Shown: piece by piece, positions 14,476 to 24,145 of the stretch
Position numbering within the stretch: the first letter of the stretch is position 1
Layout of the letters: each line of letters begins with the position of its first letter
NCBI RefSeq assembly: GCF_000755245.1
Contig: NZ_BBMP01000005.1
Span: 124,001 to 188,000 of the forward strand
Length of the DNA stretch: 64,000 nt
From: Halococcus sediminicola
GTDB taxonomy: Archaea > Halobacteriota > Halobacteria > Halobacteriales > Halococcaceae
Direction of reading: 5' to 3'
Translations under genes and position numbers: made by a program
The notes under the pieces: generated by a model
Told to the model about the DNA's origin: nothing
The model's input: only the letters and a program-made list of their open reading frames with translations
The model's database searches: none

Positions 14476-14580
14476 GGGTTGTTTGCTCGCGACCCACCAT
14501 TATCATATACAACTATTAAGGTTTGGCCATGCTTACTGACACTGGATCGTGTCCGAGTCACTGGCCGAGCAAACTGAGTT
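14332..14580. repeat. Direct repeat shared with 20357-20605
   Basis: About 245 bases are shared with 20357-20605 in the same orientation at high identity. The repeat covers the micro-protein gene, its promoter region and about 100 bases beyond (the shared segment CTTACTGACACTGGATCGT is exact). It is a duplication about 6 kb apart. Confidence 0.75.
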
Positions 14581-14767
14581 CAAGCACCATGCTGAACCCG
14601 TCGCCTTGCCAACCGCAGCATCGGTGCAACCGGCGTGTGATCCACCACAGCAACCGACGAACCAGTATGAGTGGCTGTACGTCAACTGCCAATCACGCCC
14701 ACTTTCAACTGCCCAACTGGGTAACCGATGATATCACTCCAGCCGGTGAACTCCCGATCAGACGTGA
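14573..14767. repeat. Repeat unit, uninterrupted version of 23222-24140
   Basis: This stretch matches 23222-23369 and then, across a gap, 24092-24140. Here the sequence runs straight through (CCCACTTTCAACTGCCCAAC, then GGTAACCGATGATATCA). In the other copy a 722-bp TnpB element splits it. It is therefore an empty-site reference. The repeat itself shows no convincing gene, though a 60-codon frame crosses it. Confidence 0.7.
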
Positions 14768-23010: not shown

Positions 23011-23369
23011 ACGCTCTGGGAGACGCTCTCGTCGGTTATATCTTTCCGGCAAGCAACCCTTTCTGACTCCGCAATACGCACAGCCACCTCTCAGCTGTTT
23101 CATTGATGAGAATATAAACGAAACGACCTCCACTTGCTGCATACACCCTCTCTATCTCGCACACCGATTTCAACAAGTCGAATACCTGTGATGTGAAAAT
23201 CCCGAGGATCAGTGCTAATCCCTGTGAGTTTAAGCGCCATGATGACGCGTCGCCTTGCCAACCACAGCACCTGTGCAACCAGCGTGTCATCCACCACAGC
23301 AGCCGACGAACCAGTGTGAGTGGCTGCACGTCAACTACCAATCACGCCCACTTTCAACTGCTCAACAAG

Positions 23370-24091
23370 TTGACATCCTCCCTGCCGTGAACGGCGAGAA
23401 TTCCCAGTTGGGATATTAAGGTTCGCGGGTCGCCTGTTCTGGCGGGAGGAAACCTCCTCGCGTTTTGTCGAACAAACGAACCGCTGGCTGTGCCAACCAG
23501 TCGGTACTCCTATCCTCGTGAGAGGACTCAGAGGTACTTTTCTGCCTGATGTTCTCCGCGCCGTTCGTGTCGGCATTCGCCACGGTCCCGCACTCCTCGC
23601 AGACGTACAAGCCACGCTCGACGCGCTGGCTGTCCGCTTTCGTTTCGCATACGGAGCAGGTTTTCGACGTGTTCCGTCCGGAGACGGTTTCGACGGCGAT
23701 ACCCTGCATCTCCGCTTTGTACGTGAGCATCTTCGTGAAGCGGTCGAACGCCCACCCGTGGAGGTCGAGATTCCCGTGCCGGCCCCAATTTTTCGGGCCG
23801 TCGTCGCCGTCACGGATGCCGCCGAGGTTGCCAACGAATACCGTTCCAACACCACGTTCGGCGCACTTTGCTACAATTTCTTTTGAGAGCGTGTGGAAAA
23901 GTGCGTGCGATGGTCGGTGCGCGTGACCGTACGATCCGCCATACGTAACCTATGACGGTATACAAATCTAAGCGTTCCGATGGAATATCCAAACGGCCAC
24001 CACCGCGTTGTTGGCGGTTGCGACCATCCGAGACAAAGCGGACGGCACGTATCCCCGCCCTAAAGGGCGAGGCTTTGCGCCTGTCTTTCAC
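23370..24091 (-). mobile_element. IS200/IS605-type element with exact ends defined
   Basis: A 722-bp insert splits a repeat whose uninterrupted copy is at 14573-14767. On the element's coding strand the left end begins directly after TTAC and the right end finishes with GGAGGATGTCAA, that is, after TCAA. These are the same target and cleavage tetranucleotides as IS608. A hairpin (GCCGTTCACGGC) lies just before the right end and another (GCCTCGCCCTTTAGGGCGGG) near the left end. The enclosed tnpB is truncated. Confidence 0.8.
23416..23949 (-). pseudogene. tnpB: TnpB, C-terminal half only
   Basis: The frame starts after a TAG with no ATG and reads VTYGGSYGHAHRPSHALFHT, then VFVGNLGGIRDGDD, and the zinc finger CSVCETKADSQ..CEECG followed by ADTNGAENIRQK. 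The first catalytic Asp region is gone, and the usual Glu position of the second motif is Gly-Asn in VGNLGG. The last catalytic Asp (ANADTNGAEN) remains. So this copy is inactive. The same subgroup's middle part survives as a fragment at 44851-45015 and its tail at 30762-30990. Confidence 0.75.
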
Positions 24092-24145
24092 GTAACCGAT
24101 GATATCAATCCAGCCGGTGAAACCCCGATCAGGTGAGTCGACGTC

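Follow-up and report, generated by a model that had tools for sequence, protein, structure and literature searches.

A defective TnpB-only element of Halococcus sediminicola with IS608-type ends, and guide/cleavage-site covariation among its relatives

The window, a 64,000-nt stretch of contig NZ_BBMP01000005.1 of Halococcus sediminicola, contains two copies of a repeat of ~200 bp, one uninterrupted and the other split by an element read on the minus strand. The element carries a remnant of tnpB, a hairpin near each end, and an omegaRNA region at its right end (Table 1). Segmental duplications of ~200 bp, 6.0-6.2 kb apart, also occur at 14318-14524/20343-20549 (95% identity) and 18094-18322/24268-24496 (86%). 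There being several of these, this stretch of the window is a mosaic of repeats.

Table 1. Features of the element, its flanks and the uninterrupted repeat copy (window positions)
Feature	Position	Strand	Basis or remark
Whole element, deletion derivative of a ~1470-bp IS1341-type (TnpB-only) element	23370..24091	-	Best-scoring filled/empty alignment; L070 in genome G007 is a full-length relative at 90% identity
Target-repeat half, right-end side of the element	23222..23369	.	Alignment to the empty copy
Target-repeat half, left-end side of the element	24092..24140	.	Alignment to the empty copy
Uninterrupted (empty) copy	14573..14767	.	Insertion point between 14720 and 14721; TTAC on the minus strand, 14721-14724
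Left cleavage/target site TTAC, in the flank	24092..24095	-	Seen in the filled and empty copies
Left guide AAAG, element positions +16..+19	24073..24076	-	Position of IS608 A+16/A+17; covaries with the left cleavage site
Left-end hairpin CCTCGCCC TTTA GGGCGGGG	24053..24072	-	Single-stranded DNA fold; conserved in relatives
Right-end hairpin TCTCGCCG TTCA CGGCAGGG	23380..23399	-	Weakened by two changes against the family form CCTCGCCG/CGGCGGGG
Right guide GAAT	23400..23403	-	Identical to the IS608 right guide; covaries with the right cleavage site
Right cleavage site TCAA, final four bases of the element	23370..23373	-	Filled/empty alignment; relatives
Deletion junction	23917..23922	-	Single GCGCAC left; in L070 one copy lies on each side of the 741 bp lost here
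tnpB remnant, start region joined to C-terminal part	23416..23942	-	~247 codons lost, then a 1-nt frameshift; alignment to L070
omegaRNA region, Rfam sot0042	23379..23539	-	E=7.4e-21 across the full model (1-174); score 84.3 bits, slightly short of the gathering cut-off, 88
Flank, would-be omegaRNA guide CTTGTTGAGCAGTTGAAAGT	23350..23369	-	3' of the right end; analogy with the ISDra2 reRNA (PMC8612924)

The first-pass annotation had proposed that the split copy is interrupted by 722 bases, with the left end of the element directly after TTAC and the right end at TCAA. The length is correct. To place the junction, 1,680 combinations of shifted left and right ends were scored, covering about 20 bases each way. 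The proposed ends are the single optimum (score 295, next best 291), which rules out a chance junction or one shifted by several bases. When the element is removed, the split copy aligns to the uninterrupted copy at ~88-90% identity over ~200 bp and joins without a gap. Both repeat halves are homologous to the empty copy and in register with it, at 93% identity over 41 bp and 91% over 122 bp, and a 251-bp query around 14573-14767 matches, in the genome, itself and two pieces, 23225-23366 and 24092-24140. On the coding (minus) strand, with a caret marking each junction, the filled site reads GGTTAC^GTGAAAG...GGATGTCAA^CTTGTTGAG, its left end continuing at greater length as GGTTAC^GTGAAAGACAGGCGC, and the empty site reads GGTTAC^CCAGTTGGG. 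Comparison of the two shows that there is no target duplication.

Both ends have an ordered layout. On the left, TTAC is followed by 15 nt, the guide AAAG, the hairpin CCTCGCCC-TTTA-GGGCGGGG and AT; on the right, GAAT is followed by the 20-nt hairpin, AGGATG and the terminal TCAA. These are the sequences of IS608, in which the left and right cleavage sites (CL and CR) are TTAC and TCAA, the left and right guides (GL and GR) are AAAG and GAAT, and A+16 and A+17 pair with T-3 and T-4 (PMC5934647). The left TTAC is expected to double as the predicted target-adjacent motif of TnpB. The empty site has the context TTAC^C, the one that IS608 prefers (PMC5934647), and C directly follows the target in nine of 14 complete elements at distinct sites, relative to a background of 29% after TTAC in the window (p=0.007). 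The window sequence at 24044-24082 places the left guide inside an internal loop, with an outer closing stem, GGCGC/GYGCC, that is conserved in most left ends of the element group.

Dozens of copies were found in a search of 18 genomes of the family, and 14 complete elements were delimited and their joined flanks searched for empty sites. The first-pass annotation had suggested looking for further empty sites in related genomes, and at least eight Halococcus insertion sites have one that breaks at the same point. The break falls at the exact position for L001, L036, L070, L071 (three relatives), L074, L079 and L083, while for L075 the exact position is tied with a one-base shift. L081 differs from its empty relative by a 1-nt indel right at the junction, which makes its placement ambiguous; the junction could not be placed for L071 against L320 and L327-L329, which are too diverged, or for L072 against L333, where one side is too short. 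Since related genomes show these ends and junctions again at unrelated sites, the arrangement in the window is not a product of chance. A scan of 294 genomes across the class with the left-end pattern gave matches confined to Halococcus, plus one in G196. The latter is a chance match in coding sequence, with neither hairpin nor TTAC, and serves as a negative control. At L325 (G004:C1:373105-373764), compared with L085, an element at TTAT, genome G004 has a coding segment of ~413 bp flanked by CTGTTATGG repeats; this segment is missing from the filled genome. L326 (G003:C105) is a different tnpB element in the opposite orientation, with left flank TGAC and guide GAAG, 17 bases from the L079 site; its empty site is present in relatives, and the site misfits IS608 pairing at position 2.

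The relatives do not all carry the same tetranucleotides. Left ends combine cleavage site and guide as TTAC/AAAG, TTAT/AAAA or CTAC/AGAG. Right ends, searched with the hairpin fixed and both guide and cleavage site free, combine guide and site as GAAT/TCAA (81), GAAG/TCAC (18), GAAA/TCAT (4) and GAAC/TCAG (1). In counts that take in related copies rather than independent events, and with shuffle tests that overstate independence, 21 of 24 distinct left-end contexts fit the pairings CL1:GL2, CL2:GL1 and CL4:GL4 (shuffle mean 9.6, maximum 18 in 20,000), and GR4:CR4 is complementary in 105 of 111 right ends (shuffle mean 67, maximum 81), where each of the four Watson-Crick pairs occurs. The three left-end failures are one chance coding match, one TTAC shifted by one base, and L073. 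The last had looked like a code exception (TAAT/AAAG), but its own empty site (CCCCTTAC^ACATG) identifies TTAC as the actual left site, so that the exception disappears. Right-end matches that break the code (AAAG, AAAA or CAAG with TCAA) are mostly single-hairpin remnants with the matching left site upstream. Covariation of guide and site at the positions paired in IS608 argues that a Y1 transposase recognizes the ends. It is what the same recognition chemistry would predict, and a chance tetranucleotide match predicts none. The suggestion in the first-pass annotation that the element uses IS608 chemistry thus gains support: each guide lies at the foot of its hairpin, the left guide as far from the end as in IS608, and guides and sites covary, although the chemistry is read from comparison. 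In the open literature that we searched, which did not extend to subscription papers, natural guide/cleavage covariation in TnpB-only elements was not found, and we make no claim of priority.

Such remnants are widespread. In the same genome, L007 (G000:C23:26812-26851, also L040) reads TTAC^GTGAAAGATAGGTGC AAAG hairpin AGGATG TCAA^, a left end fused to a right end, and fits the definition of a PATE. The code predicts that L007 cannot be excised, since its left guide is combined with the right cleavage site. Single-hairpin remnants with TTAC/AAAG or TTAT/AAAA occur across many haloarchaea (L132, L139, L142, L154, L171, L174, L178, L196-L198, L211, L243 and others), and similar ones with TGAC/CAAG in further contigs that seem to be bacterial or viral (L220, L264, L270, L277, L284).

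The absence of a Y1 transposase, as first annotated, holds for the element but not for the genome, which has four Y1 genes. One of these, C23:153200-153538, encodes an intact HUH protein of 123 residues that in structure databases is closest to archaeal IS200-like transposases and ISHp608 TnpA (E 7e-17). It lies inside a 1860-bp tnpA-tnpB element with the same type of left hairpin and CTAC/AGAG at the left end, and GAAT/TCAA at the right end. On the strength of these shared ends, it is a candidate Y1 donor for the window element. A 71% identical homologue is the sole Y1 in the single-contig genome G004. That genome also has three TnpB-only elements, 98.1-99.7% identical to each other, at three different TTAT sites. 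Elements that encode no transposase have recently amplified here, where the one Y1 present is of the matching type, and the simplest reading is that the TnpB-only elements were moved in trans by that Y1. Counting against the Y1 assignment, the left hairpin of the G004 Y1 element is interrupted. The element in question, L084 (G004:C1:46914-48863), is the only Y1-bearing one in G004. The interruption is a short palindrome-rich insertion, which recalls small mobile repeats that target such palindromes in Haloquadratum.

It had not been stated in the first-pass annotation that tnpB in the window copy is a C-terminal remnant only. Compared with L070, which is 1470 bp long and 90% identical, 741 bp are gone in frame, and an additional 1-nt deletion shifts the reading frame of tnpB. 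Pfam Cas12f1-like_TNB matches 23416-23730 (3.8e-19), and this C-terminal TNB domain is the only one left. The flank that would act as omegaRNA guide mismatches the paralogous empty copy at three positions. With its right hairpin damaged, the window copy is probably now immobile. There is a weak Rfam match to HgcC at 23357-23481 (E=0.0029), overlapping the right end of the element, which suggests that HgcC RNAs may be transcribed from the right ends of IS605-type elements.

Taken together, the window element is very probably a defective TnpB-only (IS1341-type) member of the IS200/IS605 family in Halococcus, with single-strand ends of the IS608 kind that would be served by a Y1 in trans. A Y1 (HUH) transposase supplied in trans would bind the subterminal hairpins, and the 4-nt guide at the foot of each would pair with its cleavage site, TTAC in the left flank and TCAA at the right end of the element. 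One strand would then leave the donor as a circle and integrate 3' of another TTAC, producing no target duplication. One of two diverged copies of the ~200-bp repeat would have received the parent element, and most of tnpB would have been lost at some point by deletion between 6-bp direct repeats. The likeness of TTAC and TCAA to IS608 could still be coincidental, with movement by TnpB-driven repair copying only or by an unrelated transposase, given that the element encodes no Y1 and that TnpB is able to bring copies back where a site has been resealed (PMC8612924). However, guides, hairpins, distances and covariation all fit the Y1 code, and TnpB copying cannot account for the near-identical copies at new sites in G004; we regard coincidence as very improbable.

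The history of the two repeat copies is a separate matter. IS608-type excision seals the donor exactly, so that a resealed site looks the same as a naive one (PMC5934647), and the empty copy at 14.7 kb could be a donor site resealed by precise excision after the repeat had been duplicated with the element inside. Nothing specific indicates excision here, and orthologous empty sites at other loci in several species favor simple insertion as the common event. We therefore find a resealed donor unlikely; the ends are identical either way. It is also conceivable that the element was mobile in its 722-bp form, as a non-autonomous, PATE-like mini-element, instead of decaying in place, as deleted and terminal-only forms are described as strain-specific insertions in Haloquadratum (PMC3119063). 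However, the 722-bp form was found once only across its own genome and the 18 family genomes searched, and we give its independent movement little credence. Insertion of a longer parent that was at some point deleted internally is our preferred account.

Exact ends are now fixed for a group of haloarchaeal TnpB-only elements, a candidate Y1 donor is named for trans mobilization of IS1341-type elements, and TTAC and TTAT are the predicted target-adjacent motifs of their TnpBs. The comparative evidence indicates that the IS608 guide code is at work in archaea and that paired substitutions alter it in nature. It may be, although we hold this at somewhat less than an even chance, that there is one haloarchaeal Y1 lineage in which the 4-nt guide drifts but the hairpin does not, one transposase serving in trans several TnpB-only groups with different targets (left TTAC, TTAT, CTAC; right TCAA, TCAC, TCAT, TCAG). 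If so, the target-adjacent motif of each TnpB must change in step, and these elements would document, in nature, the sort of guide reprogramming that engineering of IS608 has shown.

Among known systems, the window element belongs to the IS200/IS605 family, IS1341 group, with IS608-type ends. It has TnpB sequence without a transposase, the full-length relatives matching OrfB_IS605 as well as TNB; it has subterminal hairpins in place of terminal inverted repeats, the right one weakened in this copy; and it lies 3' to a short target without duplication. All four IS608 tetranucleotides are present, and that guide pairing sets the cleavage site is borne out by covariation, which is comparative evidence only. 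By analogy, Y1 catalysis, a single-strand circle and a lagging-strand bias are predicted. IS608 itself (ISHp608, Helicobacter pylori, IS605 group) is alike in cleavage sites, guides, the left guide at +16..+19, subterminal hairpins, lack of target duplication and the +1 C, but it has its own tnpA, while the window element has only a tnpB remnant and an archaeal host. Haloarchaeal IS605- and IS1341-type elements have been described from Natronomonas, Haloquadratum and Halobacterium (ISNph5-22, ISHwa17-29), together with their targeting oligonucleotides and deletion products. They are likewise TnpB-only with near-terminal palindromes and a 'terminal oligonucleotide' as targeting sequence; unlike here, the available part of the report on them gives targeting sequences of 4-6 bp and does not describe guide/cleavage covariation (PMC3119063). 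Core deletions between palindromes are described there as leaving terminal-only forms of ~52 bp (PMC3119063). The window element is not a PATE, which is too short to code and consists of fused ends only: it has 722 bp with a tnpB remnant, and its deletion is internal, between GCGCAC repeats, not between palindromes. The IS605 elements of Halanaerobium hydrogeniformans resemble this group in having many intact-ended copies, one intact tnpA and a proposal of trans mobilization, but they are bacterial, and the accessible portion of that account does not describe guide covariation (PMC7290912). ISDra2 with its TnpB-omegaRNA differs in its five-base TTGAT site and in having both TnpB and TnpA intact; like the window element, it has a right-end omegaRNA with the flank as guide, and its cleavage site is the TnpB target-adjacent motif (PMC8612924).
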